Shown: one piece after another, positions 36,545-64,000 of the stretch
Layout of the letters: each line of letters starts with the position of its first letter
How positions within the stretch are numbered: the first letter of the stretch is position 1
Made by a program: the position numbers and the translations under genes
The notes under the pieces: generated by a model
Database searches by the model: none
Told to the model about the DNA's origin: nothing
The model's input: the letters and a program-made list of their open reading frames with translations, nothing else
Source: Acidobacteriota bacterium
Lineage (GTDB): Bacteria > Acidobacteriota > Thermoanaerobaculia > Gp7-AA8
Assembly: GCA_021325515.1 (NCBI GenBank)
Contig: JAJPHC010000013.1
Span: forward strand, 498,001-562,000
Direction: 5' to 3'
Length of the DNA stretch: 64,000 nt

Positions 36545-37060
36545 ATGGAACGCTCGGAACAGTTCTGGAATCCATATCTCGCCGGCATCGCGCTCGGCCT
36601 CGTGCTGCTCTCCACCTTTCTCGTGATGGGGAAGGGGCTCGGCGCATCCGGTGCGGCGAATCGCTTCGGCGTGTTCGTCGCCGGGATCGTTGCGCCGTCG
36701 CATGTCGCGGCGAATCCGAATCTGGCGGCGGCGCGAGGCGATCGCGCGAATGTTCTCGATGACTGGCTCGTGTTCGAAGTCCTTGGCGTCTTTCTCGGCG
36801 GCGCTCTCGGCGCCATCACCGCGGGGCGTTTCGGCGCGAAGGTGATTCGCAACGCACGAACGAGCGTCGCGAAACGCCTCGCGTTCGCCTTCGGAGGCGG
36901 ACTCCTGATGGGCCTCGCGGCGCGTGCCGCCCGCGGCTGCACGTCGGGGCAGGCGCTCAGCGGCGGCGCGGTGCTCTCCGCCGGCGCGTGGATCTTCATG
37001 CTGTCGGTCTTCGCCGGCGGCTACGCCTTTGCCTGGTTCATGAGGAGACAGTGGTCATGA
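36545..37060 (+). CDS. YeeE/YedE sulfur-transport family protein, first subunit
   Basis: The 171-residue membrane protein has about four to five helices, an NPYLAGIALGLVLLSTF start, and the family motif ARGCTSGQALSGG with the conserved Cys that relays thiosulfate or persulfide sulfur. It corresponds to one half of a full-length YeeE. It overlaps the next gene by ATGA and has GAGGAG before its start. It is expected to import a sulfur species for the enzyme complex, or to pass sulfur to cytosolic proteins. Confidence 0.83.
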   Translation: MERSEQFWNPYLAGIALGLVLLSTFLVMGKGLGASGAANRFGVFVAGIVAPSHVAANPNLAAARGDRANVLDDWLVFEVLGVFLGGALGAITAGRFGAKVIRNARTSVAKRLAFAFGGGLLMGLAARAARGCTSGQALSGGAVLSAGAWIFMLSVFAGGYAFAWFMRRQWS

Positions 37061-39001: not shown

Positions 39002-39259
39002 ATGGACGAAGACTGGACGCCCCTGCTCGCCGAAGACGTGGCGAGCGTCTACGGAGTGAAGCTCGCCGAGAAGCACTGGCGCGCAATCGTGAGCGCGCGG
39101 GAGCTGATCGCGAGGACGGGCCGCGTGCCGTCGATCGAGGAGATCGGCCGGGCCTGCGAGTGCTCCGTCGCCGACATGAAACGACTATTTCCCGGCGGAG
39201 TGGAGCGGTTGCTCGCACGCGTCGCCGGTGCCCCGGAGCTCGAAAGGAATCAGCGATGA
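39002..39259 (+). CDS. DsrC/TusE-like protein lacking the C-terminal cysteines
   Basis: The 85-residue product has the DsrC/TusE fold marks: EDWTPLLAEDVA, GVKLAEKHWRAIV, and LFPGGVERLLARVAGAPE near the C-terminus. The usual penultimate Cys (and the one in ACKIAG) are missing; two Cys lie instead in the middle (RACECSVAD). Relatives without the C-terminal Cys are thought to be regulatory (RspA-type) rather than sulfur carriers. It sits in the sulfur operon between NrfD and FadL genes and overlaps the latter by ATGA. Confidence 0.72.
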   Translation: MDEDWTPLLAEDVASVYGVKLAEKHWRAIVSARELIARTGRVPSIEEIGRACECSVADMKRLFPGGVERLLARVAGAPELERNQR

Positions 39260-40518
39260 AAAACAGGAGATGGATTGTGGTTCTCGCGGCGGTTGCACTC
39301 ACGATCGCGCCGGCCGCATTTGCGACGAATGGGTATTTCCTTCATGGTGTCGGTACGGAGAGCAAGGCGATGGCCGGTGCGACCACCGCGCTGCCGCAGG
39401 AAGCGCTCGATGCCGATACGAATCCGGCCCTCGGTGTGTTCGTGGGGCGCGGCCACTCGTATTCGCTCGCGCTCTTCAGCCCCGACCGGCAGTACACGGT
39501 CCGTGGCGCGCCGACCGGCTATCCGCAGACGTTCGGCCTGACGCCGGGCAGAGTGTCGAGCAAGTCGAAGCTCTTCCCGATGCCGGCCGCCGGTTTCAAC
39601 TTCCGTCCGAATGACGTGAGTGCGTTCACCGTGAACTTCACGGCGCACGGCGGAATGAATACCGACTATCGGACGAATACGTTTTATGGATCGAATCACA
39701 CCGGCGTCGATCTGGCGCAGATGTTTCTCTCCGCGACGTACTCGTATCGCATCACGGAGAATCAGTCGGTGGGGATCAGTGCGGTGATTGCCGAGCAGCG
39801 CTTCAAGGCGAGCGGGCTGGAGGCATTCGCAGCGTTCTCGTCGGATCCCGATTGCCTGACCGGCAACGGCTATCGCTGGTCGCACGGTCTCGGATACAAG
39901 ATCGGCTACTTCGCGCAGCCGCTGCCGCGGTTCTCGTTCGGTGCGTCGTACACGCCGGCAATCAAGATGTCGAAGTTCGGCCGCTACTGTGGGCTGTTCG
40001 CGCAGGACGGCCGCTTCAACATTCCCGGATCGGCGAGCGCCGGCATCGCGTTCAAGGCGGCGGAGCCTCTGACGCTGACGGCCGACGTGCAGCGCATTCA
40101 TTACAGCGATGTCGCGGCGGTGGGCAACGGGCTGCTGCCGAATCTCGTGACGTCGCCCCTGGGAAGCGAGAGCGGCGCGGGCTTCGGCTGGAAGGACATC
40201 AACGTCTACAAGGCCGGGGTGCAGTGGAAGGTTAGTGAGGCCTGGACGTGGCGGGCGGGCTTCTCGAAATGCGATCAGCCGGTTCCGCAGAGCGAGGTGC
40301 TGTTCAACATTCTGGCGCCGGGCGTCGTACAGGAGCACGTCACGTTCGGCTTCAGCACGGCCCTCGGCAACCGGCCGGGGCGCTTCAACATGGCGGTGAT
40401 GTATGCGCCGTCGAAGAGTGTGCGCGGCGCGAATCCGCTCGAAGCTCCGGGAGCGCAGCAGATCGAGCTGAAGATGCACGAGTATGAAGTCGAGTTCGGA
40501 TACTCGTTCGGCTTCTGA
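39256..40518 (+). CDS. OmpP1/FadL-family outer-membrane transporter
   Basis: The ATG at 39256 overlaps the previous stop. The signal peptide (MKNRRWIVVLAAVALTIAPA) ends before TNGYFLHGVGTESKAMAGA, the characteristic FadL/OmpP1 N-terminus. The 420-residue protein then has amphipathic beta strands and ends in YEVEFGYSFGF, a C-terminal aromatic barrel signature. It may take up hydrophobic substrates or elemental sulfur-like compounds given the operon, which is inference. Confidence 0.87.
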   Translation: MKNRRWIVVLAAVALTIAPAAFATNGYFLHGVGTESKAMAGATTALPQEALDADTNPALGVFVGRGHSYSLALFSPDRQYTVRGAPTGYPQTFGLTPGRVSSKSKLFPMPAAGFNFRPNDVSAFTVNFTAHGGMNTDYRTNTFYGSNHTGVDLAQMFLSATYSYRITENQSVGISAVIAEQRFKASGLEAFAAFSSDPDCLTGNGYRWSHGLGYKIGYFAQPLPRFSFGASYTPAIKMSKFGRYCGLFAQDGRFNIPGSASAGIAFKAAEPLTLTADVQRIHYSDVAAVGNGLLPNLVTSPLGSESGAGFGWKDINVYKAGVQWKVSEAWTWRAGFSKCDQPVPQSEVLFNILAPGVVQEHVTFGFSTALGNRPGRFNMAVMYAPSKSVRGANPLEAPGAQQIELKMHEYEVEFGYSFGF

Positions 40519-41047: not shown

Positions 41048-44000
41048 ATGGCGGGTCCCCTCGATCGAGAAATCGAATCGAAGTACGAGATCCTCGACAA
41101 AATGGGCGAGGGTGGGATGGGCTCCGTCTACAAGGTCCGTCACCGCCACCTGCAGGACGTTCGCGTCATCAAGACGGCGAAGTATTCCGATAACGAGGCC
41201 GAGAAAGCGCGCTTCTTCAGCGAGGCCCGCCGCGGTTATCAATTCAACCATTCCAGTATCGCCCGCGTCTTCGACTTCGACATCACGAGCAGCGGTACCG
41301 CCTACATCGTCATGGAGTACATCGACGGACTGGACATCCGTCAGGTGCTGGCCAACTCCGGAAACACGATCGAAACGCCCCGTGTGATCGACATTGGCGT
41401 TCAGACTCTCGGTGCTCTTCAATATCTTCACGAACGCGGCCTCGTCCATCGCGACATCTCGCCCGACAACCTGATGTTGACGAAGGATGCCGACAACAAG
41501 CCTCTGATCAAGCTCATCGACCTTGGCATCGCCAAATCGATGGAGGCCTCGCAGAGTCTCACGGTCGCGGGAAAGTTCATCGGCAAGGTTACGTACGCAT
41601 CGCCCGAACAATTCGGCGGCGATGTCGATCAGCGCAGCGATCTTTATTCGCTGGGTGTCGTGATGTACGAGTTGCTCACGGGCGCTCTGCCGTTTCGCTC
41701 CAGCGACTACCGGGCCATCATCGCCGCGCACATTTCGGGCGAGCTGCGCGGATTTGCGCAGACGGATCCCAACGGGCGCGTGCCCCAGAAGCTGCGCGAC
41801 GTGATCATGCGCGCGCTGCAACGCGATCCCGATGATCGTTTTCAGACGGCGGCCGAGTTTGCTGCCGCGCTCCGCGAGGTGGGGAATGTCGAGGCCAGGG
41901 TCGACAAGACTGCGGTCGTCGACATGCAGGATCTGCTGGCGGCGAAGCCTTCACGCTCGGAACAGATCGCGTGGGAAGCGGCGCTCGCGGCCGATTCGCC
42001 GAAGTCGTGGGGCGACTTTCTCAAGAAGTATCCCGGCTCCTCGTTTGCGGCACAGGCGCGCGCGAAGCGCAAGGAGCTCGAGCAGCGCGAGGAGAAGGAC
42101 TACAACGATGCGGCCGCCGCCGACACCGCTGAGGCCTGGAACCGCTTTCTCGAAAAATATCCGGGCTCCGATCTCGCCTCGCGCGCGCGACGGCGGCTGG
42201 AGAACATCGAAGCGGAGGAAGCGGAACGGCGCGCGTTCGAGACGGCCGCGGACGCTGATTCGGTCCGTGCCTGGGAATTGTTCCTTCGCAACTATCCGGA
42301 AGGAGCGGACGCGCCTCGCGCGCGTGATGGCCTTGCGGCGGCGCGGCGCCGTGAAGCCGAAGAGAAGGCGTGGAATGCTGCGTCGCGTGCCGATTCGTCG
42401 AAGTCGTGGCGCGATTTCATCGAGCACCACGCCACCTCGCCGCGCGTCGGAGAGGCGAAGGAGCGCCTCGCGATCGCGGCTGCACGCGAGGAAGAGGAAC
42501 GCGCCTGGAACGCCGCCGCCCGCGCGGACTCGATCGAGGCCTGGCAGAAATATCTCGAGAAATTCGGGCAATCGGAGCGTGCGGAAGAGGCGCGAGAGTT
42601 CCTCGAGCTTCTGCAGCAGCGCGCTGCCGAGGAAGAGGCATGGTCGCGGGCCAGCGAGGAAGAGACCAGCGATGCCTGGCTCGAGTATCTCGAGACCTTT
42701 CCGGCATCGTCTCGGAAAGACGATGCGCGCCGGAGGCTCGATGCCGCGAAGAGGCGTGAACAGGAACAGCATGACTGGATCAGCGCGGGCGCTGCCGATA
42801 CGTCCGCTGCCTGGCGCGAATATCTGGCGAAGCATCCGGATGGCCGCCGGGACGAAGCGAAGCGGCGTCTTGCCGCCGCGGAGTTCGCCGAAGCGGAAGT
42901 GACCGCATGGAATGCCGCAAAGGCGGCTGCGACGGCGGACGCCTGGCGCACATATCTCGCGAGTTTCGCCCAGTCGGATCGTGCGAAGGAGGCGCGGGAG
43001 CGACTCGCCGCTGTCGAGGCCGAGGAGCTTGCCGCCCGCGAGTACGAGGCCGCGGCACGCGAGAACACGGCGGCGGCCTGGAACCGATTCCTGTCGAAAC
43101 ATGCGCAGTCATCGCTTGCGGCTCGTGCTCGCGAACAGCAGGCCACGGCCATGGCACGCGAGAAGGCATGGTCCGACGCAGAGTCGAAGGATACGAGCGC
43201 GGTCTGGCAGGCGTATGCCGATGCGTATCCCGATTCCGCACAGGCGGCCGAAGCGCGCCGGCGGCTTCAGGTCGCGAAGAAACGGGAGCAGGAAGAGCAG
43301 GATTGGCGTGATGCATCGGCGCGCAATACGCCGGCCGCGTGGCGGGACTATTTGTCCAGGCACCCGGACGCTCGTCGTGAAGAAGCAGAGCAGAGGCTCG
43401 AACTTGCCCGCGATGCCGAAGACGAAGCCGGCAGTTGGAAAGCGGCAGAAGAGTCGCGGACGTCGGATGCCTGGCGCGACTATCTGAGCCGGTTCGGATC
43501 GTCGTCACGTGCAGCGCGGGCGCGGGAAAACCTCTCCGCGGCTGAAAAGCAGGAGCAGGCCGCGCGCGATTTCAGCGCCGCGGTTGCCGCTGACACGCCG
43601 CAGAGCTGGAGTGCCTTTCTCGCCGCGCACGGAACGTCGGAGCAGGCGCCCGAGGCGCGGGCGCGTCTCGCTGCGTCGAAGGCACGCGAGCAGGCATGGA
43701 AGAAAGCGGAGAGCGAAGATACGAGCGATGCGTGGCGCGCCTATCTGCGCGTTTATGGCACTGGTGCGCGTTCCGCCGAGGCTAACCAGCGGTTGCAGCT
43801 AGCCGAAGCGCGGGAGCTGGAGATGCGCGGATGGCTTGCCGCGGAGAAGGCCGGCACACCAGCAGGCTGGCGGGAGTATCTGGCGAAGCATCCGGCGGGG
43901 CGCCGGGCCGAGGCCGAGAAACGGCTCGCGCTGGCGGAGCGCGCGGAACGCGAGTTCGAGCGGGCTGCCAAACTGGACACCGCCCAGGGCTGGAAGGAGT

Positions 44001-45721
44001 TTCTTTCCGCTCACGAACAGTCGCCGCTCGAGGACCAGGCACGCAGGGCACTTCATTCTGCAGAGTCGCGGGAGTCGGACTGGACGAAAGCCGAAGTGGA
44101 GGATACGAGCGAAGCCTGGCGGGCATGGCTGCGTATCCATGGCAGTTCATCGCGTGCCGCGGAGGCTAACCAGAGATTGCAGCGGGCCGTAAGCCGCGAG
44201 CTCGAACAGAATGACTGGCTCGCGGCGGAGGAGGCCGGTACACCGGCGGCCTGGCGCGAGTACCTGGCGAAGCATCCGGCGGCGCGCCGGGCCGAGGCCG
44301 AGACGCGGGTGGCCCAGGCGGAGCAGGCGGCGCGCGATTTCGAGCGTGCCTCCACTGTGGATACGGTTGAGGGCTGGAAGGATTTTCTTTCCGCGCACGA
44401 ACGATCGGTGCGGTCGGATGAGGCGCGCAAGGCGCTGGGAATCGCCGAGTCGCGCGAAGCGGCATGGGTCAACGCGGAATCGGAGGATACGAGCGAGGCC
44501 TGGCGAACCTGGCTGCGCCTCTATGGCACCTCACCGCGCGCAGCCGCGGCTAACCAGAGGCTGCAGCTTACCGAAGATCGCGAGGCCGAGCGGCGCAACT
44601 GGCTGGCAGCCGAAAAGCAGAACACGGTGCCGGCCTGGCGCGACTATCTCGCCAAGCATCCAGCGGGACGGGTCGAGGAAGCCAAAGGGCGCCTGCAGGC
44701 TCTCGAACAGATTGCCCGCGATTTCGAGGCGGCGGCCGCCGCCGATACCTCGAAAGGCTGGGACGAGTTCCTCACCGCCCATCCCTCTTCGGAGTTTGCC
44801 GGTGACGCGCGCCGGCGCCTCGCCTCTGCGCGTGACCGCGAGACGGCGCAGGAGCGTGCACAGCGCGAGGCAGAACAGCGCGAGCTGTCGGCGAAGCAGG
44901 CCGCCGAGGCCGCGAGTTCAGCGCTCGGTCAGGGAACGATCGAGGCCCTCGAACAATATCTGAAGGCCTGGCCACGCGCCGCGCAAAGCGATGCGGTCCG
45001 CGCCCGTCTCGATGAACTGCGAGCCGAGAAGAAACAGCGCGACGCCGAAGAGGCCGCGCGGCTGCGCCGCGAGAAGGAACAGAAAGCGGCGGAGGAACGC
45101 GCTGCGAAGGAATCCGCGGCCCGGCTGAAAAAAGAGGAAGCCGATCGCAGGCGCGCCGAAGAAAAGGCGGCCAGGGAACGCGAGCGCGCACTCGCGCGAG
45201 AGAAGGCCGGACAGGAGAAAACAGAGAAGCCGCGTCAGCCGCTGGCGCGGATCATCGGCGCGTCCGCCGCCTCTCTCCTGGTCGTCGGCGCGGCGGTCTA
45301 CTACCTGACGCGCCCGGCTGTGAAGGCTCCGGCCATCACCACGACATCGTCGCAGCCTGTCGTCACCGCGACGACGACACAGTCGGCGGCGCTGGCGACC
45401 ACTCCGTCGATGCCGGCCACGCCACTTCCCGCGGCCGCGCCGGGAACCGGCGAGCTCGTCATCAATGCGCTGCCGTGGGGCGAGGTGAAATCGATTCGCG
45501 ACAACGCGACGAAGACCGAGCGCGTGACCCAGCCGCTTTACACGCCGGTCACGATGAGCCTTCCCGCCGGCGCTTACACCGTCGTCATCACCAATCCCAA
45601 CTCGGGCAAAACGCTGACGCAGACGGTCGTCGTCGAAGCCTCCAGGAGCAAGCGCTTCGAGGCGCCGCTCGACGCGATCGATGCAGACGAATACCTCGCC
45701 CGCGTCGCCCAACCCCAATAG
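41048..45721 (+). CDS. Ser/Thr protein kinase with about 22 tandem repeats, TM helix and PEGA-like tail
   Basis: Residues 1-280 are a complete kinase: glycine loop GEGGMGSVY (20-28), Lys42, HRDISPDNLM, DLG in place of DFG, and an APE-like SPEQ. From about 300 to 1,330 come roughly 22 units of about 43 residues with the core W-x-A-x-DT-x2-AW-x2-YL-x-HP. Units 14-22 form three near-copies of a three-unit super-repeat, so they expanded recently. A Lys/Glu/Arg coiled-coil follows (about 1,330-1,395), one membrane helix (RIIGASAASLLVVGAAVYYL, about 1,402-1,421) and a PEGA-like external domain. The kinase and repeats face the cytosol. Confidence 0.9.
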   Translation: MAGPLDREIESKYEILDKMGEGGMGSVYKVRHRHLQDVRVIKTAKYSDNEAEKARFFSEARRGYQFNHSSIARVFDFDITSSGTAYIVMEYIDGLDIRQVLANSGNTIETPRVIDIGVQTLGALQYLHERGLVHRDISPDNLMLTKDADNKPLIKLIDLGIAKSMEASQSLTVAGKFIGKVTYASPEQFGGDVDQRSDLYSLGVVMYELLTGALPFRSSDYRAIIAAHISGELRGFAQTDPNGRVPQKLRDVIMRALQRDPDDRFQTAAEFAAALREVGNVEARVDKTAVVDMQDLLAAKPSRSEQIAWEAALAADSPKSWGDFLKKYPGSSFAAQARAKRKELEQREEKDYNDAAAADTAEAWNRFLEKYPGSDLASRARRRLENIEAEEAERRAFETAADADSVRAWELFLRNYPEGADAPRARDGLAAARRREAEEKAWNAASRADSSKSWRDFIEHHATSPRVGEAKERLAIAAAREEEERAWNAAARADSIEAWQKYLEKFGQSERAEEAREFLELLQQRAAEEEAWSRASEEETSDAWLEYLETFPASSRKDDARRRLDAAKRREQEQHDWISAGAADTSAAWREYLAKHPDGRRDEAKRRLAAAEFAEAEVTAWNAAKAAATADAWRTYLASFAQSDRAKEARERLAAVEAEELAAREYEAAARENTAAAWNRFLSKHAQSSLAARAREQQATAMAREKAWSDAESKDTSAVWQAYADAYPDSAQAAEARRRLQVAKKREQEEQDWRDASARNTPAAWRDYLSRHPDARREEAEQRLELARDAEDEAGSWKAAEESRTSDAWRDYLSRFGSSSRAARARENLSAAEKQEQAARDFSAAVAADTPQSWSAFLAAHGTSEQAPEARARLAASKAREQAWKKAESEDTSDAWRAYLRVYGTGARSAEANQRLQLAEARELEMRGWLAAEKAGTPAGWREYLAKHPAGRRAEAEKRLALAERAEREFERAAKLDTAQGWKEFLSAHEQSPLEDQARRALHSAESRESDWTKAEVEDTSEAWRAWLRIHGSSSRAAEANQRLQRAVSRELEQNDWLAAEEAGTPAAWREYLAKHPAARRAEAETRVAQAEQAARDFERASTVDTVEGWKDFLSAHERSVRSDEARKALGIAESREAAWVNAESEDTSEAWRTWLRLYGTSPRAAAANQRLQLTEDREAERRNWLAAEKQNTVPAWRDYLAKHPAGRVEEAKGRLQALEQIARDFEAAAAADTSKGWDEFLTAHPSSEFAGDARRRLASARDRETAQERAQREAEQRELSAKQAAEAASSALGQGTIEALEQYLKAWPRAAQSDAVRARLDELRAEKKQRDAEEAARLRREKEQKAAEERAAKESAARLKKEEADRRRAEEKAARERERALAREKAGQEKTEKPRQPLARIIGASAASLLVVGAAVYYLTRPAVKAPAITTTSSQPVVTATTTQSAALATTPSMPATPLPAAAPGTGELVINALPWGEVKSIRDNATKTERVTQPLYTPVTMSLPAGAYTVVITNPNSGKTLTQTVVVEASRSKRFEAPLDAIDADEYLARVAQPQ

Positions 45722-47974: not shown

Positions 47975-48017
47975 TATGACTTCCCTTCAGCAAGTGGTCG
48001 GTCGTCGAGGAGGTCCG

Positions 48018-49529
48018 GTGGGCAGTCCGAGGCGCAATCTTTCGTTGCGTGACGCCGTGGTGGCAACACTGCTGGTGTACGCGGTAGTCGCAGTCCCGGC
48101 GATGGCCAGCTCTCTCGAGCTGAACCTGAGAATGAAGTTCTACCGGAATGGCGCGCAGGCCACGACGCTGCTCGATGGAACTGTTCTGATTACGGGCGGA
48201 TATTCCGGCCGCACGGCGGAAATCTGGAATGGCAATACACGGACATTTACAGCAGTCGGGCGGATGGCTTATTACAGACAACGTCATACGGCGACTCTTC
48301 TCGACGACGGCACAGTCCTGATTGTGGGAGGCGCTGGAACCTATCCGGCCGAGATCTACGATCCGAATTTGCAGACCTTTTCGACGATCTCCTATCCGTT
48401 TGTCAGCGTCGGCCCTTTCGCATCGGCAACGAAGCTCAATAACGGCAAAGTATTGATCGCGGGAGGGGACGCCAGCACCAATAAAGCTCAAATCTACGAT
48501 CCAGGTCCGAAGACGTTTACCGCGACGGCCAACGATATGATCTTTTCCCACTCCGGGCACAGCGCAACCCTGCTGTGCGACGGCACGGTTCTCATCGCCG
48601 GAGGCAGCTACTGTCCTAACTGCTCCGGCAGCACCGGCAGTCCGAATGCGGAGATCTATGATCCCAACACCAACAGCTTCAGTCCGATGAATCCCCTCGA
48701 TCCGTATGCCCCGGTGATGACCGCTTCCCGTGTACTGCATACTGCGACACGAATCTCGTGCTCACAGGTGTTGTTATTCGGCGGCGAGAATGGCGCCTCG
48801 GGCTCGCCGTTTGCCAGCGGCGAGCTTTACGACGTGAATGCTCATACGTTTTCCCACATTAGCGAGCTCGATCCGCCTGCTTACTATCTGCAGCCGGCTT
48901 TCGATCACGCCGCATTCCTTCTGGATGATGGCGACGTCTTGTTCATCACGCAGAACTACCAACCCTTCCTGAGATACAGACCTTCAACCAAGTCCATCAC
49001 CGTCGAGCCGTTGTCAGGGTCGTTCTACCCCTACAACTACGCCCGAGCCACCGCCGCGTACCCTTCGACTGGTGACTGCGGCGGTTGCCCATCGGGGATG
49101 AAGATTCTCGTCGCCGGTGGGGGAAACCTCCAGGGCAATTCGTCCACGATCGACGCCTTTGTCTGGGTTCCGACGAACATGTCGCCCCCGCCTCCGACTC
49201 TGACCGCCATTACACCGTTGTTCGGACGCACTTGTGGCGGCACAAGCCTCACGATCGACGGCGCCAATTTTCAGACAGGCGCCCGTCTCAGTTCCGCGAC
49301 GACCGATACGGTGACACCGACTCGCGTCACGGGGACGACGACCGCACAGTCGGCTGGTATGACTACCATCTCTGTCTTCAACCCCGACGCGCAATACGGC
49401 TCGATCGCCTTTGAGTTTCGCGCCGTGCAGTCCGGCGATGCGAACGGCGATGGAGTTCTCGATTTGAACTCCGACACACGATACATGTGCCAATACTTGT
49501 ACGCTGGCGGCCCGCCACCGGTGAACTGA
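48018..49529 (+). CDS. Secreted Kelch-repeat protein with IPT and dockerin-like C-terminus
   Basis: The GTG at 48018 follows GAGGAGGT (48007-48014) and gives a signal peptide (RDAVVATLLVYAVVAVPAMA); an ATG at 47976 is alternative. Kelch blades with TLLDDGTVLIVGG, TLLCDGTVLIAGG and similar cores span residues about 30-370. An IPT/TIG domain (LTAITPLFGRTCGGTSLTI) follows, and the last 30 residues contain one calcium-loop unit GDANGDGVLDLNSD of dockerin type, ending GGPPPVN. It is a paralogue of the next gene. Its partner may be a cohesin-like domain in the nearby proteins. Confidence 0.82.
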   Translation: MGSPRRNLSLRDAVVATLLVYAVVAVPAMASSLELNLRMKFYRNGAQATTLLDGTVLITGGYSGRTAEIWNGNTRTFTAVGRMAYYRQRHTATLLDDGTVLIVGGAGTYPAEIYDPNLQTFSTISYPFVSVGPFASATKLNNGKVLIAGGDASTNKAQIYDPGPKTFTATANDMIFSHSGHSATLLCDGTVLIAGGSYCPNCSGSTGSPNAEIYDPNTNSFSPMNPLDPYAPVMTASRVLHTATRISCSQVLLFGGENGASGSPFASGELYDVNAHTFSHISELDPPAYYLQPAFDHAAFLLDDGDVLFITQNYQPFLRYRPSTKSITVEPLSGSFYPYNYARATAAYPSTGDCGGCPSGMKILVAGGGNLQGNSSTIDAFVWVPTNMSPPPPTLTAITPLFGRTCGGTSLTIDGANFQTGARLSSATTDTVTPTRVTGTTTAQSAGMTTISVFNPDAQYGSIAFEFRAVQSGDANGDGVLDLNSDTRYMCQYLYAGGPPPVN

Positions 49530-49532
49530 CTC

Positions 49533-51002
49533 ATGACTAGAAGAACGATTGCAGTGCTTGCACTCTGTGCGGTGGCACACCTGGCGAGGGGCGCGTCGAT
49601 CGAACCGCCAGGATCGGTTCAGATGCGTTGGGGCCGCGGCGGCGCGGCGGCCGTAACGTTGAATGACGGCCGGGTGGTCATTTTCGGAGGAAACCAATAT
49701 ACGGGGTGCAATCCGGAAGGCTGCGACGCCGAGATCTGGAACCCGGCCTCGAAGACCTTTACAACGGTCACGGCATCGATGAACGACGGGCCGCGCAGCA
49801 GGCTTACTGCCACATTACTCGACAATGGAACGGTCCTGATCGTAGGTGGCGACTCGTACCCGTCTTATTACACGTCTGAGATTTTCAATCCCGGCGACAA
49901 TTCGTTCACTCGAACGACCGGAAATCCGGTTGCGCCGCGCGGTGGTCACACCGCGACAAAGCTGAGTGACGGCAAGGTCCTCATCGTCGGCGGAGATTAT
50001 TCGGGGAGCGCCGAAATCTACGACCCGAATGCACAATCCTTTACCGCGACTTCCGACTCACCACTCGCTGGTCACACCGACCATACCGCGACGGTCCTGT
50101 GTGACGGGAAGGTTCTGATCGCCGGCGGATTCTCCCGCACTGCCGATCTCTACGATCCGGTAACTGCGAGTTTCCGGACCTCGTTCCTTCCCCCTATGGT
50201 CCGTGCGCGGCACGGCCATACAGCGAACCTCTTGTCGTCCTGTAAGGTGCTGTTGCTGGGCGGCGACGCCCGCTATCCGGCGACGTCGGAGCTCTACGAT
50301 CCCTCCGCCGGGGGATTCTTCGTGTCCGGCCCGAGCGACAACACCTATCGTAACTACCATGTTGCCGTGACGCTTGACGACGGAAAAATCGTAATCGCGG
50401 GTTCGAGTTTCGACACGAGCTCTGGCAGTTCCCGGGTCCTCGAGCTCTATGACCCCATCGCGAACACCTTTTCAGTCCTGCCCATCAGCGAGAGTTATGG
50501 TTTTTATCCAAGAGTCTTTGCGGCAAGTTATCCCGACGTTGCGAACTGCAACGGCTGCCCGTCCGGACACAAGGTTCTGATCGCAGGCGGCGGCCCTTCG
50601 TCGAATGGCTATCCATTAGGCTTTATTTTCGTTCCCACAGCGATGTCGCCACCTCCGCCCGTGGTAACTGCCGTGAGTCCGGCAACTGCACGCACTTGCG
50701 GCAATACGACCGTGACTGTCGATGGCCTGAACTTTCAGGCTGGCGCAACCCTTGGATATTCTTTCAATGCACCAACGTCGGTGACCGCGACGAGAATCGT
50801 TGCGACCACAAAGGCGGCGAGTCCGGGGACCTTCTCGTTGACTGTAACCAATCCTGATTCACAATTCGGGTACAAGGACAATTCCTTCACGTTCGTCCAA
50901 TACCCGCCGGGAGATGTCAACGGCGATGGAATCCTTTCGCCGCTCGACATCTTCTATATGACGCTCTATGTGAACCACAATGGTCCGGCCCCGCTCAATT
51001 GA
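49533..51002 (+). CDS. Secreted Kelch-repeat protein with IPT and dockerin-like C-terminus (paralogue)
   Basis: The signal peptide is MTRRTIAVLALCAVAHLARG. Kelch blades (TLNDGRVVIFGG, KLSDGKVLIVGG, TVLCDGKVLIAGG and others) fill residues about 25-370. The IPT domain begins VTAVSPATARTCGNTTVTV, and the C-terminus has GDVNGDGILSPLDIFYMTLY, a cleaner dockerin-type EF-hand loop, ending GPAPLN. The Asp, Asn and Gly positions are complete. The stop codon lies in the palindrome CGCTCAATTGAGCG (50992-51005), next to the convergent cohesin-like gene. Confidence 0.84.
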   Translation: MTRRTIAVLALCAVAHLARGASIEPPGSVQMRWGRGGAAAVTLNDGRVVIFGGNQYTGCNPEGCDAEIWNPASKTFTTVTASMNDGPRSRLTATLLDNGTVLIVGGDSYPSYYTSEIFNPGDNSFTRTTGNPVAPRGGHTATKLSDGKVLIVGGDYSGSAEIYDPNAQSFTATSDSPLAGHTDHTATVLCDGKVLIAGGFSRTADLYDPVTASFRTSFLPPMVRARHGHTANLLSSCKVLLLGGDARYPATSELYDPSAGGFFVSGPSDNTYRNYHVAVTLDDGKIVIAGSSFDTSSGSSRVLELYDPIANTFSVLPISESYGFYPRVFAASYPDVANCNGCPSGHKVLIAGGGPSSNGYPLGFIFVPTAMSPPPPVVTAVSPATARTCGNTTVTVDGLNFQAGATLGYSFNAPTSVTATRIVATTKAASPGTFSLTVTNPDSQFGYKDNSFTFVQYPPGDVNGDGILSPLDIFYMTLYVNHNGPAPLN

Positions 51003-56458: not shown

Positions 56459-57307
56459 ATGATGGTGTCCGTGTCACACACACGTCCTCTTGCCGTCGCG
56501 ATCCTCCTTCTTGGAGCCGTTGCGCTGCGCGCCGATTACCGCAGCGACTTTCGGAATGGCATCCGTGCTTACAGCAAAAAGGACTGGCCGGCGACGATTG
56601 ACAGCATGCGCAAGGCGATCGCGCAAAACTCCACCGAGTCCACGGAGCGGATCATTATCTCCGGCACCTGGTATGTTGCCTACACGCCGCATTTCTATCT
56701 CGGCGTTGCACTCGCCGAGTCGAAACGTTGTGACGAGGCAAGGCCGGAGCTTGCGAAGTCGGAGGCGCAGGGCATCATCCAGAAATTCGAGGCAGTCGCG
56801 CTGAAGAAGACGCGCGACGCCTGCGGTCCAGCACCGCAGCTCACTCCTCCTCTGACTGCGTCCGCTGCGCCGGCGACCACGACCACGACGCAGAGCGCGG
56901 AAACCCACGCGCCGGCGACCGCGCCACCGCCGGTCACCGCGACGATCGCCGCCGTCAGTACGCAGCCTGCACCTCAGACCACGAGCTCCGCATCCGCCGC
57001 GGCCTCGCGTCCGCAGCCGCCGGTGAATCTCGCCGAGGCCGTACGTGCCTATGCGCGAGGCGAGTATCAGCGTGCGATCACGCTGCTCGCGGCGAGTACG
57101 ACGAACGAACGCGTCTACAAAGCGCAGGTCGCGCTATTCCGTGGGGCGTCCCGCTATTCGCAATTCCTCGCTGCCGGCGGCACGAACACGAGTCTGAAAA
57201 GGCAGATCATTGCCGACGTGCTCGAATATCGCGGTCTCGACAAGCGGCCCGTCGATCCGCGGCTGTTCAGTCCGCGATTCCGTGACTTCGTGGCCAACCC
57301 TCATTGA
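56459..57307 (+). CDS. Exported TPR-like protein with Thr/Ala/Pro linker
   Basis: The N-terminus has a signal peptide (RPLAVAILLLGAVALRA). The mature protein has a TPR-like domain (DFRNGIRAYSKKDWPATIDSM, residues about 25-110), a low-complexity Ala/Thr/Pro linker (about 120-185) and a second short TPR-like domain (LAEAVRAYARGEYQRAITLL). A TAGAAT -10-like box overlaps the first ATG (56455-56460), so the real start may be the GTG at 56465 or 56471. It precedes the DUF4388-FHA gene by 15 bp and should be in the same operon. Confidence 0.7.
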   Translation: MMVSVSHTRPLAVAILLLGAVALRADYRSDFRNGIRAYSKKDWPATIDSMRKAIAQNSTESTERIIISGTWYVAYTPHFYLGVALAESKRCDEARPELAKSEAQGIIQKFEAVALKKTRDACGPAPQLTPPLTASAAPATTTTTQSAETHAPATAPPPVTATIAAVSTQPAPQTTSSASAAASRPQPPVNLAEAVRAYARGEYQRAITLLAASTTNERVYKAQVALFRGASRYSQFLAAGGTNTSLKRQIIADVLEYRGLDKRPVDPRLFSPRFRDFVANPH

Positions 57308-57322
57308 TAAGATTGGTTTCGC

Positions 57323-58384
57323 ATGCAAGTGATCCTTCAGGGCAGTTTCGGACATTTCCCGCTCGACCAGCTGCTCACCTTCTTCTCGACCTTTACGCAC
57401 ACGGGCGCACTCGAGATCCTTTGTGACGATCGCCGAGGACGTGTTTTCTTTCAGGACGGGGCGGTCATACACGCGGAGAGCAGCGCTGCTCCCGACGCAC
57501 ACGCGGTGCTCGACGACATGTTCGTCTGGCCAGGAGGCACGTTCAGCTTCTCGGCCGGCGTGGTTTTGCCGGAAGGGATCGCTCGAGCGACGATCGACAT
57601 CGATGCCGTCATTCAGGCCGGGCTGGCACGCGCCGCCGAGTGGCGAAGCCTGATGACGCTCTACCCGAGCGAAGACGTCATTCTTCGCGTGATCGAGAAT
57701 CCGGAGTCCGAAGCGCAGATCAGCCTCACCGGTGACGAGTTCCGCATTCTGATGAAGATCGGCGCCCAGCGGACGCTGCGGCAGTTGCGCAATGATCTGA
57801 ACCGCCCCGCGGCGGAGCTCTATCCCCTTGTGCATCGCCTGGAGACGAGCGGGCTGATTGCGCGCGAAGAGCCGCAGGAGAGTATCCAGACACTGCGCAA
57901 TTTCGATCTGCCCGACAATGGTGCTCAGACGACCGTCGTGCCCCGGATCACACGGGTGCCGCCGCCGACGGCCCCTCAACCAGACGCTGCACCCGCGCTT
58001 CCGCAGGAACCGGAGCTCACACAGCCGAAATTGGCGGCTCCTTCGGAGATTGGCGGCCCGGAAACCGAGTTGCTTGTGGGAAGCCTGACGCTTGCCAACG
58101 GTTCCGTGTTTCCTCTCGTCGATCCGTCGTATGAGATCGGGCGCGATGTCAAGAACGATATCGCCATCCACGATGCCAGCGTTTCGAGCCAGCATGCTCG
58201 CATTGTGCGCGATCAGCATGGGTTCGTCATCGAGGACACGAAGAGCCGGAATGGCACGTACGTCAATGGCGAGAAGATCACCGGTCCGCGCACACTCGCC
58301 GACGCGGACGTCGTGAGGCTTGGCAAAATCGTCATGACGTTCCACGTCGCGAGAAAAGTCATCACGCGCGAGCGGACGAACTAG
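57323..58384 (+). CDS. DUF4388 (PatA-like) and FHA domain protein
   Basis: The N-terminal DUF4388/PatA-like domain (MQVILQGSFGHFPLDQLLTF to about 110, with GRVFFQDGAVIHAE) is common in gliding and signalling proteins. A winged-helix-like middle (about 130-190) and Pro-rich linker lead to a C-terminal FHA domain (about 265-340) with intact phosphothreonine marks: EIGRDVKNDI, SVSSQHARI, KSRNGTYVNG. It should read Thr phosphorylation, perhaps by the repeat kinase encoded 11 kb upstream. It is cytosolic and sits just before the electron-transfer operon. Confidence 0.85.
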   Translation: MQVILQGSFGHFPLDQLLTFFSTFTHTGALEILCDDRRGRVFFQDGAVIHAESSAAPDAHAVLDDMFVWPGGTFSFSAGVVLPEGIARATIDIDAVIQAGLARAAEWRSLMTLYPSEDVILRVIENPESEAQISLTGDEFRILMKIGAQRTLRQLRNDLNRPAAELYPLVHRLETSGLIAREEPQESIQTLRNFDLPDNGAQTTVVPRITRVPPPTAPQPDAAPALPQEPELTQPKLAAPSEIGGPETELLVGSLTLANGSVFPLVDPSYEIGRDVKNDIAIHDASVSSQHARIVRDQHGFVIEDTKSRNGTYVNGEKITGPRTLADADVVRLGKIVMTFHVARKVITRERTN

Positions 58385-58446
58385 ACATCGACCTCCGGGC
58401 TTCTCTTCGTCTCCCCGTAAAACGCCGGCAACCCGCTGAGTTGTCC

Positions 58447-58468
58447 TGCACGAGCTCCCGCTCGTGCA
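58447..58468. repeat. Palindrome TGCACGAGC-TCCC-GCTCGTGCA
   Basis: A perfect 9-bp stem with a TCCC loop lies in the 161-bp spacer between the FHA gene and the reductase gene. TTGACT (58471-58476) follows it; no convincing -10 is seen. It may be a REP-like unit or attenuator. Confidence 0.5.
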
Positions 58469-58545
58469 CCTTGACTTGATCACTTCTTAATGGAATCCTC
58501 ACCGAGCCTCACTACACGACTGCTGAGAAGAGTTTTCGCTCGCTC

Positions 58546-60921
58546 ATGGACGCATACGATCTGCTGATCGTCGGTTCCGGACCGGCTGGGCTGGCAACCG
58601 CCGCACATGCCCAGGCCAACGGTCTCAGTTATCTCCTGCTCGAGCGAACGGATCACCTCGCCGACACCATCTACAACTATCAGGCGCGCAAGGCCGTCAT
58701 GGCCGAGCCGATGATCATTCCGGCGCGCGGCGATCTTCCTTTCAATGCCGGCTCGCGCGAATCCGTACTCGGCGCGTGGGACAAGTACGTCGCCGATCAC
58801 AAGCTCAGTGTCGAGTATTCCGCCGAAGTGAAATCGTTGAAGCGTGGCGACGTCTTCACCGTCAAGACCTCGGCCGGCAAGGAGTACAGCGCAAAGAAGG
58901 TCGTGCTGGCGATGGGCACGCAGGGCAATCCGCGCAAGCTCGGTGTTCCCGGCGAAGACATGCCTCACGTTCTCTACCGGCTGGCCGATGCGGCCGAATA
59001 TCAGGATCGCGATCTGCTCGTCGTTGGCGCGGGCGACTCGGCGCTGGAGATCGCGATTGCGCTCTCCGAAGACAATCGCGTCGGCCTCGTCGTTCGTGGC
59101 ACGGAGATCACGCGCGCCAACGAGATTCTCACGAAGGAGATCCTGCAGCGCGCCGCGCGCGGTCAGATCAACGTCTACTACAGCGCGAACGTCAAACAGG
59201 TCTACGAAGGCGAAGCCGATCTGAGTGTGCGTGGCGAACTGACGCGCGTCGCAGCCGAGGTGATCTTCCTCAAGCTCGGTGCCGATGCTCCGCGAAAATT
59301 CTTCGAAGCCTGCGGGATCCGGTTCACCGGTGAAGGGAAAGATGCGCGCCCCGTGCTGACGGACAAGCACGAAACGAACGTTCCCGGTCTCTATCTGATC
59401 GGCGCGGCGAGCGGCCGCGATCTCATCAAGCTGGGGATGAACCAGGGCTTCGAAGTCGTCGAGCACATCATGGGCCGCGACGTCGAACCGGCCGATGAAC
59501 AGATCCTGCGCGAACGCCTGCCGTTCTGGGAAGGCACCGTTTCCCAACGCATCGCTGCACTTCGGGAACGGGTGCCGATTCTCGCCACCGCTGCCGAGCC
59601 TCAACTGCGCGACATGTTTCTGGGCGCACGCGTGCAGGAGTATCGCGACGGCGAGGTCATCTTCCAGCAGAACGACTACACGAGCGATTTCATGATCATC
59701 GCCGCGGGGCGTGTTCAGCTCTACCGCGTCCGCGAAGATACGAATCAGGCCGTGCTCGTCGGCGAGCTCACGGCGGGCAATTTCTTCGGCGAGCTGAGTC
59801 TGATTTCGGGACGCCGCCGTCCGCACACAGCCCGGGCCATCGCTCCCACCCGCCTGCTCGTCATTCCCCGCAGGGCGATTCTCAAGCTTCTCGCGTCGGC
59901 ACCGCGTGCAAAGCTGCTCGTCGACCAGGCATTCCTGCTGCGGGCATTTCGCGAATACCTCTTTCCTTCGATTCCGGAGTCTGTGCTCGGAGAGCTGGTC
60001 GACATCGCGGAGGTAGTGCAGTTTCCCAAGAACGCGGTGATCTTCAAGGAGGGCGATCCCGCCGATGCCTTCTATCTGATTCGCAACGGCATGGTGAAGA
60101 TCTCCAAAAGATCAGGAGAAAAGGAAGTCGTGCTGTCCTATCTCGTCGCCGGCAACTTCTTCGGCGAGGCTGCGCTCTATTCGCACATGACACGGACCGC
60201 GACCGTGACGACGATCTTCCCCTGCGACCTGATCGTGCTCTCCAGCAAATCGTTCGAGAAGTTCATGAACCGCAATCCCGAATTGCGGGACATTCCGCTC
60301 AAGAAGCTGGAGGAGAACAGGATTGCGTCCTTGATGGCGGAGGGGACACCGGGGTCGGGAAACATCCTCGCCGATCTGATCCGGGAAGAAGTCATCATGG
60401 GGACGCAGACGCTGCTCATCGATGAGCATCGCTGTATCCGCTGCGGCAATTGCGTGAGCGCATGCGAAGGGGTTCATGCCGATGGACAGGCCCGCCTCTC
60501 GCTCACCGGCATCAAGTTCTACAACCTGCTGGCGCCGAATTCCTGCTGGCAGTGCGAGAACCCTCTCTGCATGCTCGATTGTCCGCCCGACGCGATTCAG
60601 CGCGATCCGCGGGGTGAGGTCTACATCAAGAGCAATTGCATCGGCTGTGGCAACTGTGAGCGCAATTGTCCTTACGGCAACATTTTCATGGTTCACAAGG
60701 AACCGAAGAAGTCGCTTTTTGCGTGGGTCAAGGCGCTTTTCAAGAAGGAGCAGCAGCCGGAAATGGAACAGACGGTTGCCGTGAAATGCGACCTCTGCCG
60801 GGAGATCAGCGGCGGTCCAGCCTGTGTACGGCACTGTCCGACGGGAGCGGCGATTCGACTTACGCCTTCTGAATACAAGGAAGTCCTCGAGGAGATCGTC
60901 ATCAGCCGGGGAGAGCGTTGA
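58546..60921 (+). CDS. FAD/NAD(P) reductase fused to two cNMP-binding domains and a four-cluster ferredoxin
   Basis: Residues 1-320 form a thioredoxin-reductase-like flavoprotein: FAD GSGPAGLATA (about 10-19), NAD(P) VGAGDSALEIA (about 161-171), and an FAD-closing VPGLYLIGAA. The TrxR CxxC is absent. Two cyclic-nucleotide-binding domains follow (about 350-460 and 475-590), each with GNFFGE-type phosphate cassettes lacking the usual RTA Arg in one copy. The C-terminus (about 620-791) has four [4Fe-4S] sites: CIRCGNCVSAC, CWQCENPLCMLDC, CIGCGNCERNC, CDLCREISGGPACVRHC. It should move electrons from NAD(P)H to the membrane partners under small-ligand control. Confidence 0.9.
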   Translation: MDAYDLLIVGSGPAGLATAAHAQANGLSYLLLERTDHLADTIYNYQARKAVMAEPMIIPARGDLPFNAGSRESVLGAWDKYVADHKLSVEYSAEVKSLKRGDVFTVKTSAGKEYSAKKVVLAMGTQGNPRKLGVPGEDMPHVLYRLADAAEYQDRDLLVVGAGDSALEIAIALSEDNRVGLVVRGTEITRANEILTKEILQRAARGQINVYYSANVKQVYEGEADLSVRGELTRVAAEVIFLKLGADAPRKFFEACGIRFTGEGKDARPVLTDKHETNVPGLYLIGAASGRDLIKLGMNQGFEVVEHIMGRDVEPADEQILRERLPFWEGTVSQRIAALRERVPILATAAEPQLRDMFLGARVQEYRDGEVIFQQNDYTSDFMIIAAGRVQLYRVREDTNQAVLVGELTAGNFFGELSLISGRRRPHTARAIAPTRLLVIPRRAILKLLASAPRAKLLVDQAFLLRAFREYLFPSIPESVLGELVDIAEVVQFPKNAVIFKEGDPADAFYLIRNGMVKISKRSGEKEVVLSYLVAGNFFGEAALYSHMTRTATVTTIFPCDLIVLSSKSFEKFMNRNPELRDIPLKKLEENRIASLMAEGTPGSGNILADLIREEVIMGTQTLLIDEHRCIRCGNCVSACEGVHADGQARLSLTGIKFYNLLAPNSCWQCENPLCMLDCPPDAIQRDPRGEVYIKSNCIGCGNCERNCPYGNIFMVHKEPKKSLFAWVKALFKKEQQPEMEQTVAVKCDLCREISGGPACVRHCPTGAAIRLTPSEYKEVLEEIVISRGER

Positions 60922-60924
60922 CGC

Positions 60925-61752
60925 ATGCCGGTCGCGCGCAGTGGGCGCTTATGGCGCGTGATCTTTGCGGTCCTCCTCGTGACCGTGGTCGCCGTCTATT
61001 TCCGGCAGGCGCGAGACGGCTTTCCGCACGGCGGTTCGCCCATCGGTCTCTTTTATGGAACGCTCGGATATCTGTTGATTCTCCTTTTGGCGTTCTTCGG
61101 AATCCGAAAGCGCTGGTATCGATCGCGTCTGGGAACGCTCGAGAGCTGGCTTCAGTCGCACATCTATCTCGGCGTACTCGTGTTGATCATTCTTCTGCTG
61201 CACACGGGCGGCCGCTTTCACGACACGATTGCGGTGGCCACTCTGGCACTCGTGGCAATCGTCGTATTGAGCGGAATCTTCGGAGCGATTCTGTACGTGA
61301 CGATTCCCCGCGTCCTGACGGAAGTCGAAACGAACCTCACTCTCGAGCAGATCTCGGAACAGTTGAATCAAATGGCAAAGTCGATGGCGCGCGTCGCTTC
61401 AGGACGCTCGCAGCCCTTTCAGAGGATTCACGATCAACTGATCCGCGAGTCGACTCCCGGTGCCTTTGCAGGCTGGCGTCTGCTTTTCTCATCGACACGC
61501 CATAAGAACCAGACTCCCTCCGACTGGGCCAATCTCCTCGGTCTCGTTCCCCGCGCCGAACAGGATGATCTGCGGCAGCTCCTCGTCGTGTCGCGGCAGC
61601 GAAAGGAATTGCTGATCCGCTTACGCTTTCAGCAGAAGTACAAGAATCTGCTGGAGGCATGGCTGTATGTCCATGTTCCCTTCACGATCGCTTTGATCGT
61701 TTTCGCAATTGCGCACATTGCTGCGGTCTTCTATTACGGACAGGTGCAATGA
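60925..61752 (+). CDS. Di-heme cytochrome b-like membrane protein
   Basis: The 275-residue protein has about five membrane helices: 10-27, 42-60, 77-94, 102-125 and 247-270. Four His lie at matched spacing: H79 and H93 in helix 3, H250 and H264 in the last helix, as for two b-type hemes stacked between the two helices. A soluble middle (about 130-240) is cytosolic and contains basic residues. It starts 3 bp after the reductase and overlaps the decaheme gene as ATGA, so the three proteins are probably made in fixed ratio. It would carry electrons from the Fe-S domain across the membrane. Confidence 0.82.
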   Translation: MPVARSGRLWRVIFAVLLVTVVAVYFRQARDGFPHGGSPIGLFYGTLGYLLILLLAFFGIRKRWYRSRLGTLESWLQSHIYLGVLVLIILLLHTGGRFHDTIAVATLALVAIVVLSGIFGAILYVTIPRVLTEVETNLTLEQISEQLNQMAKSMARVASGRSQPFQRIHDQLIRESTPGAFAGWRLLFSSTRHKNQTPSDWANLLGLVPRAEQDDLRQLLVVSRQRKELLIRLRFQQKYKNLLEAWLYVHVPFTIALIVFAIAHIAAVFYYGQVQ

Positions 61753-63983
61753 CGTTCGTCGTACAGCGGATCGAAGGACGGGCCGCGGTCCTCAATCAGT
61801 TTCAGACTGACGTCCTGCGCATAGGCCGCGGGACGAACTGCGAGCTCCGTTCGGAAAATCCGGCTGTTGCACTGCTGCACGCGCAGATCGAGGCCAGTGC
61901 AAGCGGGTACACGATCGTTGATAAGGGGAGTGTCACCGGGACGTATGTGAATCGCAGGCCGGTCGAGTCGGCGCCGGTGGCAAAGGGCGATGTCATCGAG
62001 GTCGGCGATCTGATCCTCGAAGTTCAGTTGGCCGATCCCGCGAAGCCGATGTTCCTGCGCATCACGACGCAGAGCCAGACTGCTGCGGTGTCCGCTTCGA
62101 TCGAGGCCGCCCCGCAGGCCGCCGATCTGCCGGCCGGACGTGCGATCAAGGCGGAACGCATTGACTACGCACTGGCGTTTCGTCTGCGCCGCCCCTACCT
62201 GACCAAAGTCGCGGTGACGAGCCTTCTGCTCATCATCACATTTGCTGTAATCGGCGAGCTCGCTCTTCCCGAGCGACAGACGCTCTTCATGCCGGGCGGC
62301 GTGTCGTCGGCGCATTCGCGCGCGCGCGATGTCCGGGATCAGCCGATCGCAAAAAATTGCGGCGCCTGCCATGATCCCTGGAACGGCGTCAACGAGGCGA
62401 AATGCAAGTCGTGTCATGGCCGTGCACCGCACGCAGATCGCGAACGAACTCCGCCAGCCTGCACCTACTGCCATGCCGAGCACCGCGCGCAGCCGAAGCT
62501 GGCAATGGTTCCCGATCTGAAGTGCACGGCGTGCCACGCGGATCTGATGCGCCACATTGCCGGCAGCGAACCGCCGCGCATTCCGGCGCGCATTACCGGC
62601 TTCGGTCTGGAACATCCCGAGTTCAAGCCGATCGCCGATGCCGATTCGCTGCGTTTCAACCATAAGCTGCACCTGCGCAAGACGGGTATCCTCAATGGAC
62701 GAGGTCAGCGCGAGATTCTCACGTGCGCACTGTGCCATAAGCTGACTGACACAAGAGGGAGAGTCGATCCTGCGCCATTGCGATTCGCGACGGCGTGTCA
62801 GCGCTGTCATACGCTCACGTTCGATCCTCGATTTCCCGATGCCGAAGTGCCGCACGGCGGTGATCCGGGACTGGTGTACGGATACATCGTCACGACCTAT
62901 GCCGGAAACCGCGAGATTGCCGGGAAGTCGCCGGAGGAGATCCGGCGCATTCTCACGACGCGTCCGCCGTCCACTGTCGATGAGCGGGCCTTGTTGAATG
63001 CCGAGCAGGTCATCAGGACGAAGTGCCAGCTCTGTCATCAGATCGAGCGCCGCGGGACGCGGCTTGCGGCAGTCGTTCCGATTCTTCCCGGAACGTGGCT
63101 ACAGCGTGCGGCGTTCTCGCACACATCTCATACCAACATGGACTGCGAGACGTGCCACGACCGGGCGCGGAACAGCACGGCAACAGCGGACGTGCTGATT
63201 CCGTTGCAGAGCGCCTGTGTTTCCTGTCATGGACCGAAGTCGGTGAAGATTCCAAGTTCGTGCGTTACATGTCACGTGTATCATGTCCGCTCCAGGCTCT
63301 TGAGAACGCACGCGGCGGTGGGCGGGCTGGGCAGCGCCCCCGCGATGTCACCAACCGGGGATTTGACGGGAATGCTGCAGACAGTACTTCTATACGCGAT
63401 CGTGATCCTGATGCTGGTCGTCCTGATCCCGGTGGCGCTTGCATTATTTACGAGACTGCGTGCGCCGAAAGGGCCAGCGGCCCCGCCGGCACCGCCGGCT
63501 CCGGTGACGCGAGTCCGCGCCGCGCCGTCGCCTGCACCGCCGTCCGGCGCGGATCCGGCCCGGAAACCTCAACCAGCCGCTGCACCCGCTGCGGTTCCAA
63601 CAGCGGATTCGACGCGGCTCATTGACGTTCCTCCCGAACCATCAGCACCCGCCGGTCCGGAGGCCACGGCGATGGTGGAGTGGTATGGCATGCTGACCTG
63701 CACGTCGGGGCCGCTCGAGGGACAGCGGTTCATCGTTGAAGAAGAAGGCCTCTGGATAGGGCGCGATCCTCAATTCGCACAAATCGTCATCAATGACTCA
63801 CGAATCTCCAAGAGGCATGTGCGAATCGTCCCGCGCAACGGGAAGGTCCATGCCATCGATGTAGAATCCACCAACGGAACGTTCATTGACCAGGTCGGTG
63901 AGAGAATCACCGACGTCCAGCTGAAAAAGGGCAACACGATCATCCTGGCCGACAACGCGGCTTCATTCCTCTATCAATTGTGA
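61749..63983 (+). CDS. FHA-TM-decaheme cytochrome c-TM-FHA protein
   Basis: The ATG at 61749 overlaps the previous stop. Residues 1-95 are an FHA domain (RIGRGTNCEL, TGTYVN, where the binding Ser and Asn are replaced); one membrane helix (153-172); ten CxxCH heme sites from CGACH (204) to CVTCH (about 505); a second helix (LQTVLLYAIVILMLVVLIPV, about 540-560); a Pro/Ala linker; and a complete C-terminal FHA domain (GRDPQFAQI, SRISKRHVRI, STNGTF). The hemes are periplasmic and both FHA domains cytosolic. This architecture is not one I recognise. Confidence 0.9.
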   Translation: MTFVVQRIEGRAAVLNQFQTDVLRIGRGTNCELRSENPAVALLHAQIEASASGYTIVDKGSVTGTYVNRRPVESAPVAKGDVIEVGDLILEVQLADPAKPMFLRITTQSQTAAVSASIEAAPQAADLPAGRAIKAERIDYALAFRLRRPYLTKVAVTSLLLIITFAVIGELALPERQTLFMPGGVSSAHSRARDVRDQPIAKNCGACHDPWNGVNEAKCKSCHGRAPHADRERTPPACTYCHAEHRAQPKLAMVPDLKCTACHADLMRHIAGSEPPRIPARITGFGLEHPEFKPIADADSLRFNHKLHLRKTGILNGRGQREILTCALCHKLTDTRGRVDPAPLRFATACQRCHTLTFDPRFPDAEVPHGGDPGLVYGYIVTTYAGNREIAGKSPEEIRRILTTRPPSTVDERALLNAEQVIRTKCQLCHQIERRGTRLAAVVPILPGTWLQRAAFSHTSHTNMDCETCHDRARNSTATADVLIPLQSACVSCHGPKSVKIPSSCVTCHVYHVRSRLLRTHAAVGGLGSAPAMSPTGDLTGMLQTVLLYAIVILMLVVLIPVALALFTRLRAPKGPAAPPAPPAPVTRVRAAPSPAPPSGADPARKPQPAAAPAAVPTADSTRLIDVPPEPSAPAGPEATAMVEWYGMLTCTSGPLEGQRFIVEEEGLWIGRDPQFAQIVINDSRISKRHVRIVPRNGKVHAIDVESTNGTFIDQVGERITDVQLKKGNTIILADNAASFLYQL

Positions 63984-63989
63984 GGTTTC

Positions 63990-64000
63990 ATGAAAGCGTT
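63990..64000 (+). CDS. Start of next gene (truncated by window)
   Basis: ATGAAAGCGTT begins 6 bases after the stop of the decaheme gene, with TGAGG (63981-63985) as a ribosome site overlapping that stop. Only three codons are visible (M-K-A), so nothing can be said about the product except that it continues the operon. Confidence 0.6.

Follow-up and report, generated by a model that had tools for sequence, protein, structure and literature searches.

Can the proteins that carry electrons across a bacterial envelope themselves bear domains of the kind that read cyclic nucleotides and phosphorylated proteins? The question is raised by a group of genes at the end of the window, the 64,000-nucleotide stretch analysed here (G000:C51:498001-562000, from a 5.4-Mb genome). 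An earlier note on this DNA had described a DUF4388-FHA protein, a two-cNMP, four-cluster flavoprotein, a four-His cytochrome b and an FHA-TM-decaheme-TM-FHA protein; all four were confirmed as + strand open reading frames by their Pfam/NCBIfam domains and motifs. The first (57323-58384, 353 aa) carries DUF4388 and FHA domains (Pfam, 3.6e-14 and 1.7e-20, respectively). The genes had also been described as overlapping, which applies to the last two: orthologue alignment places the start of the FHA-decaheme gene at 61749, not 61659, so that it overlaps the cytochrome b stop by 4 nt (ATGA). The flavoprotein and cytochrome b genes are separated by a 3-nt gap. A reading frame at 56459-57307 (TPR-like, with a signal peptide) was rejected as part of the operon because it has no counterpart beside other copies. 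At the opposite end, an HbpS-like gene (two domains; 63990-64000, +, running off the window) starts with an ATG at 63990, six bases past the FHA-decaheme stop. It is directly followed, beyond the window, by a barrel-like gene (L063:2179-4161; 661 aa, signal peptide, C-terminal F) and then by an LVIVD-decaheme gene (L063:4166-7777; 1204 aa, ten CXXCH motifs, LVIVD repeats). The operon therefore extends past the window end, and what the earlier note described is just its inner half. Elsewhere in the window are a molybdopterin oxidoreductase gene (33788-35995) near a Sulf_transp/rhodanese gene (36988-38142) and a gene for a FadL-like protein (39160-40518), as well as two adjoining genes for Kelch-TIG proteins (47976-51002).

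The flavoprotein (58546-60921, +; 791 aa) was matched by Pyr_redox, two cNMP and Fer4 profiles. Residues 1-310 form a YpdA/TrxR-like flavin domain with FAD and NAD(P) motifs; the match to TIGR04018 (3.4e-45) is below the YpdA cut-off (154 versus 340 bits), and that to TIGR01292 (84 bits) is also under its cut-off. The CXXC of thioredoxin reductase is absent from the sequence of this domain. TrxR-type ferredoxin-NADP reductases and YpdA have the same FAD and NAD(P) motifs and likewise no CXXC; in contrast to these, the window flavoprotein is fused to cNMP and Fe-S domains. The two cNMP domains (59593-59955 and 59959-60315, +) both score over the PF00027 cut-off. Their phosphate-binding cassettes are intact, with the motifs GE(L/M)SLISGRRRxxT and GEAALxSxxxRTATV, respectively, in the orthologues, and the cassette Glu and Arg are kept in both domains in 15 of 15 aligned orthologues. 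The domain that follows (60379-60918, +) has 16 cysteines and four [4Fe-4S] ferredoxin-like clusters, as judged by Pfam and conserved motifs; 16-17 cysteines are found in distant relatives.

The cytochrome b (60925-61752, +; 275 aa) has five TM helices and four conserved histidines (H79, H93, H250 and H264). It had no match in Pfam or NCBIfam, including PF01794 (FRD). Two WX3HX13H motifs and [ST]GxxG were present in all 49 of the cytochromes b checked. He et al. (2017; PMC5566968) define the PCC3/PCC4 inner-membrane protein by five TM helices together with SGxxG and two WX3HX13H motifs, and propose that it binds two hemes b; the window protein has each of the three defining features. The same source draws an analogy between the two HX13H pairs, in helices 3 and 5 with two hemes b, and FRD proteins. 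Ferric reductases and NADPH oxidases of the FRD type (PF01794) have NAD(P)H flavin input in common with the window system, but differ in that the window cytochrome gave no Pfam match and its electrons are proposed to pass onward to hemes c rather than to Fe3+ or O2.

The FHA-decaheme protein (61749-63983, +; 744 aa from the conserved start) was matched in Pfam by two FHA domains and Cytochrome_C7/C3, and ten CXXCH motifs were counted. These lie at 62358-63275 (+), between TM1 (about 62208-62264) and TM2 (about 63384-63440). Positive residues on the N side of TM1 and the C side of TM2 would make both FHA domains (FHA-N, 61794-62018; FHA-C, 63753-63947; both +) cytoplasmic and the hemes periplasmic. 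AlphaFold models were too poor to use: that of cytochrome b (three sequences) had a pLDDT of 62 and gave only noise in Foldseek, and that of the FHA-decaheme protein (four sequences) had a pLDDT of 38 and gave no fold match. PDB sequence profile searches with the cytochrome b and the barrel returned nothing relevant.

The cytochrome b profile matched 84 of the 396 genomes of the phylum. Architecture (a) is that of the window. Architecture (b) consists of a cNMP-FeS protein, cytochrome b, a decaheme cytochrome and a flavoprotein carrying two FHA domains, with a further two-FHA protein encoded separately. In architecture (c) a cNMP-FeS-cytochrome b fusion accompanies an FHA-TM-hepta/octaheme protein, which in several genomes extends into the flavoprotein as a single chain of 1056-1109 aa, and in (d) cNMP-FeS, cytochrome b and decaheme occur without FHA. 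The remaining cytochrome b loci are PCC3-like or of other types, without cNMP. A cNMP-FeS unit goes with the cytochrome b in all architectures seen but the PCC3-like, and FHA is found in all of these but one. In a maximum-likelihood tree the cytochrome b sequences group according to architecture; support is good for clades c, a, alpha and PCC3-like, but the deepest branching order is not resolved. The outcomes that the earlier note would have taken as refutation were mostly not seen: the genes stay linked, and fusion of FHA to a membrane multiheme cytochrome recurs in three clades. FHA-TM-octaheme-flavoprotein chains were located at L111:7774-10941 (with Fer4 between the hemes and the flavoprotein), L126:9003-12254, L131:3111-6437, L132:3851-7174 and L133:13213-16485. 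Cytochromes with 20-40 hemes occur with the same cytochrome b family at four PCC3-like loci (L113, L053, L055 and L057), the first of which also has the same barrel family.

Relatives were also found in three Alphaproteobacteria genomes and on twelve Sphingobium plasmids. The alphaproteobacterial loci whose neighbours were examined encode a flavoprotein-cNMP-FeS protein, cytochrome b and a decaheme cytochrome whose N-terminus is an FHA-like domain; in S. herbicidovorans this domain scores under the Pfam cut-off (17.6 versus 20.7). Plasmid pMSHV of S. herbicidovorans, which was typed as conjugative, has genes for HbpS, the barrel and the LVIVD cytochrome a few kilobases from the inner set (53-60 bits for HbpS, 488 for the barrel, 408 and 1237 for the LVIVD cytochrome). 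An extra cytochrome c gene adjoins HbpS, and a CHASE2-cyclase gene lies about 20 kb from the flavoprotein. Genes for CHAT, CHASE2-cyclase and ShlB/FhaC-type secretion proteins were observed near the system on the conjugative-type plasmid of Sphingobium herbicidovorans (L119; NZ_CP020539.1, 785-830 kb). A match on a Gluconobacter plasmid was rejected as a copy; the system is absent there, and the separate small gene for a 7-heme protein (L118:7234-8786), beside a weak cytochrome b match, is perhaps a remnant.

The barrel-like gene was traced across the 396 genomes by a single-sequence search. All 41 genomes with the barrel (35 genera) encode the cytochrome b as well, which overall is present in 84 of 396 (hypergeometric p~1e-32, with genomes treated as independent and no correction for their shared ancestry), and in 24 genomes the two lie within 25 kb. 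At four loci (L131:16894-19230, L132:16907-19264, L133:1191-3563 and L137:3991-6303) a tetraheme (Cytochrom_CIII-like) domain is joined to the N-terminus of the barrel, a porin-cytochrome fusion that ties it to electron transfer. Its fold is predicted from the C-terminal F, the signal peptide and the tetraheme fusion; a crude amphipathic β-strand score did not separate it from shuffled sequences (19 versus 16.2 ± 2.7). Porin-cytochrome conduits in general are recognized by an outer-membrane porin co-encoded with multiheme cytochromes; here the co-encoding is seen, with the barrel as a putative porin. The window's own cluster combines a 10-heme membrane cytochrome, the barrel and a 10-heme LVIVD cytochrome, and a 4-heme gene follows these only in some relatives.

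With domain content, motifs, topology signals, conserved order and barrel co-occurrence established at the level of sequence, the operon probably encodes a trans-envelope conduit of porin-cytochrome type, linked to NAD(P)H and with signalling-domain folds on its inner-membrane parts. We infer the order of electron transfer, its outward direction, the outer-membrane position and all regulation as follows. Electrons from NAD(P)H would enter the FAD domain and pass to the four Fe-S clusters, then across the inner membrane by way of two hemes b in the 5-TM cytochrome b, and from there to the ten periplasmic hemes c of the FHA-decaheme protein. These would deliver them to the outer-membrane barrel with the LVIVD-decaheme cytochrome and on to an extracellular partner, with the HbpS-like protein as an auxiliary. 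The inner path from NAD(P)H through FAD/Fe-S and hemes b to hemes c, as the earlier note had drawn it, is plausible, and the FHA and cNMP domains would be on its cytoplasmic side. There a cyclic nucleotide bound to the cNMP pair and a phosphothreonine protein bound to FHA could gate, assemble or localize the complex.

A stronger claim is that second messenger and Ser/Thr phosphorylation directly gate the exit, switching NAD(P)H-driven trans-envelope flow post-translationally in this phylum and on Alphaproteobacteria plasmids; we hold it tentatively, at somewhat short of even chances. The FHA and cNMP domains may instead be structural or assembly docking modules and not regulatory sensors, a possibility that we consider real and likewise hold below an even chance. 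Docking would suit FHA-N, which in the window's own lineage keeps GR but has AxxH and TGT in place of SxxH and NGT, losing the S of the former and the N of the latter; it is highly conserved (GRGTxxELRSENPAVALEHA) although these pThr residues are lost, and is degenerate in the Alphaproteobacteria too. It would also suit variant b, in which the cNMP cassette motif was not found, and variant d, which has no FHA. Against docking, FHA-C (GR/SKRH/TNGT) and the DUF4388-FHA protein (GR/SSQH/RNGT) have the canonical pThr-site residues (GR, SxxH, NG[ST]), and the fused FHA of variant c as a rule has GR and SRxH and in most cases NGT. The cNMP cassettes are intact in the own lineage and in most variant c and d relatives, and class III cyclases lie close to the cluster in three lineages (a CHASE2-cyclase in G059 and Sphingobium, an FHA-cyclase in G293). 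Cyclases near three of some 45 loci are suggestive only of a cyclic-nucleotide link; in the window's genome none of six class III cyclases adjoins the operon. At L111:11942-13582 an FHA-class III cyclase fusion is encoded directly downstream of the FHA-octaheme-flavoprotein gene.

For direct gating, FHA-C and the DUF4388-FHA protein would have to do the phospho-reading, as FHA-N lacks the canonical pThr contacts; the N-terminal domain had been proposed as a phospho-reader, a role that its residues in this lineage do not support. Nor is the FHA pair general. The earlier note had stressed FHA domains at both ends of a multiheme cytochrome; this is true of the window's own order, the only place where a C-terminal FHA was seen, and is thus a lineage trait (G059 has no C-terminal FHA, and in G007 it is a separate ORF). 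OdhI, GarA and FhaB are FHA readers with the same fold, and FHA-C and the DUF4388-FHA protein carry the canonical residues; the difference is that FHA here is tethered to a transmembrane multiheme cytochrome. A Ser/Thr kinase encoded at about 41 kb had been named as a candidate partner to test, but it is one of about 66 in the genome and is not a recurring neighbour. Kinases lie near five loci, a number that chance alone would give at about 66 kinases per genome, and a specific kinase link was rejected. The window gene concerned (41048-45721) encodes a 1557-aa protein with a Ser/Thr kinase domain.

The complex could alternatively be a surface reductase of heme or ferric iron, or of oxyanions (selenite/tellurite), that serves to acquire or detoxify these compounds; the HbpS-like protein would then handle heme. 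An HbpS-like gene does lie within the operon in two phyla, and the LVIVD cytochrome, judged by its sequence, is a distant relative of Geobacter ExtM, a component of a selenite/tellurite cluster. However, the score against ExtM (NF040943), 93.8 bits (E 7.9e-27), is far below the cut-off of 800, HbpS-like domains are widespread and no neighbouring iron-uptake gene was noted; we regard this function as unlikely. The Geobacter cluster extHIJKLMNOPQS likewise groups a porin, multiheme cytochromes, a cytochrome b and an Fe-S protein; in the available part of its description (PMC5877670), ExtO/ExtP are of Rieske/bc type and no FHA, cNMP or NAD(P)H flavoprotein is described.

A conduit running in reverse, in which an extracellular donor (metal, humic or quinone-type) feeds the outer cytochromes and electrons are pushed to NAD(P)+, seems rather improbable to us. 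TrxR-like flavoproteins are able to run either way, and Sphingobium, generally regarded as aerobic, is among the hosts found; both points favour it. In the part of He et al. available (PMC5566968), PCC3 and PCC4 are moreover proposed as inward paths in Fe(II) oxidizers, but with a quinone link assumed, whereas in the window operon the Fe-S subunit is fused to an NAD(P)H flavoprotein. As far as that text goes, PCC3/PCC4 have in common with the window operon the inner-membrane motifs, multiheme cytochromes (including a 10-heme one) and a porin-type gene, the last compared by type of gene. In PCC4 subgroup II a 4Fe-4S gene precedes that of the inner-membrane protein, as in the window, and PCC4 has no extracellular cytochrome. 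The window operon goes beyond these with its NAD(P)H flavoprotein, tandem cNMP, FHA and LVIVD outer cytochrome; FHA and cyclic nucleotide are both unmentioned in the main text of He et al., as far as it was available. In Geobacter, ImcH or CbcL with ExtABCD or OmcB similarly comprise a membrane multiheme cytochrome that feeds a porin-cytochrome conduit; ImcH and CbcL are treated as quinol oxidases/quinone reductases, with FHA unmentioned (PMC6295460), and electrode sensing is assigned to a separate chemosensory/cyclic-dinucleotide network (PMC5585712). A literature search of partial coverage found no paper coupling FHA with multiheme or periplasmic c-type cytochromes, and none on LVIVD or on Sphingobium/Sandarakinorhabdus together with multiheme proteins.

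The idea that unrelated redox and signalling genes lie together by chance, for which one might cite a genome rich in FHA and kinases, is refuted by the fusions, the 4-nt overlap and the same order across family, order, class and another phylum, and has practically no probability left. The gene order is shared by ten relatives, which excludes chance or an assembly artefact; it is kept in G018 (same order) and G059 (same class). Cytochrome b is 51-71% identical within the family and 48-51% in the order and class, and the barrel-like protein is 51-67% identical to the copy in the window's genome in ten of the genomes compared. For the family, the statement covers genomes with the cytochrome b and enough contig; several family genomes gave no match at the threshold used. 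The DUF4388-FHA gene holds the same position at eight loci (L038, L039, L040, L043, L044, L045, L047 and L049). The linked genes thus form a conserved unit, and in relatives they stay together.

In the literature compared, the inner-membrane modules of extracellular electron transfer are quinone-linked and sensing belongs to a separate network. In this operon it is the electron-transfer proteins that bear cyclic-nucleotide and phosphopeptide domain folds, and their flavin input is from NAD(P)H. If gating is true, this would be a natural switch, and a portable one, for the cell's electrical contact with its surroundings, spread across one phylum and carried on a conjugative-type Sphingobium plasmid. 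The fused sensor-type domains suggest that cells could switch their electrical exit on and off directly.
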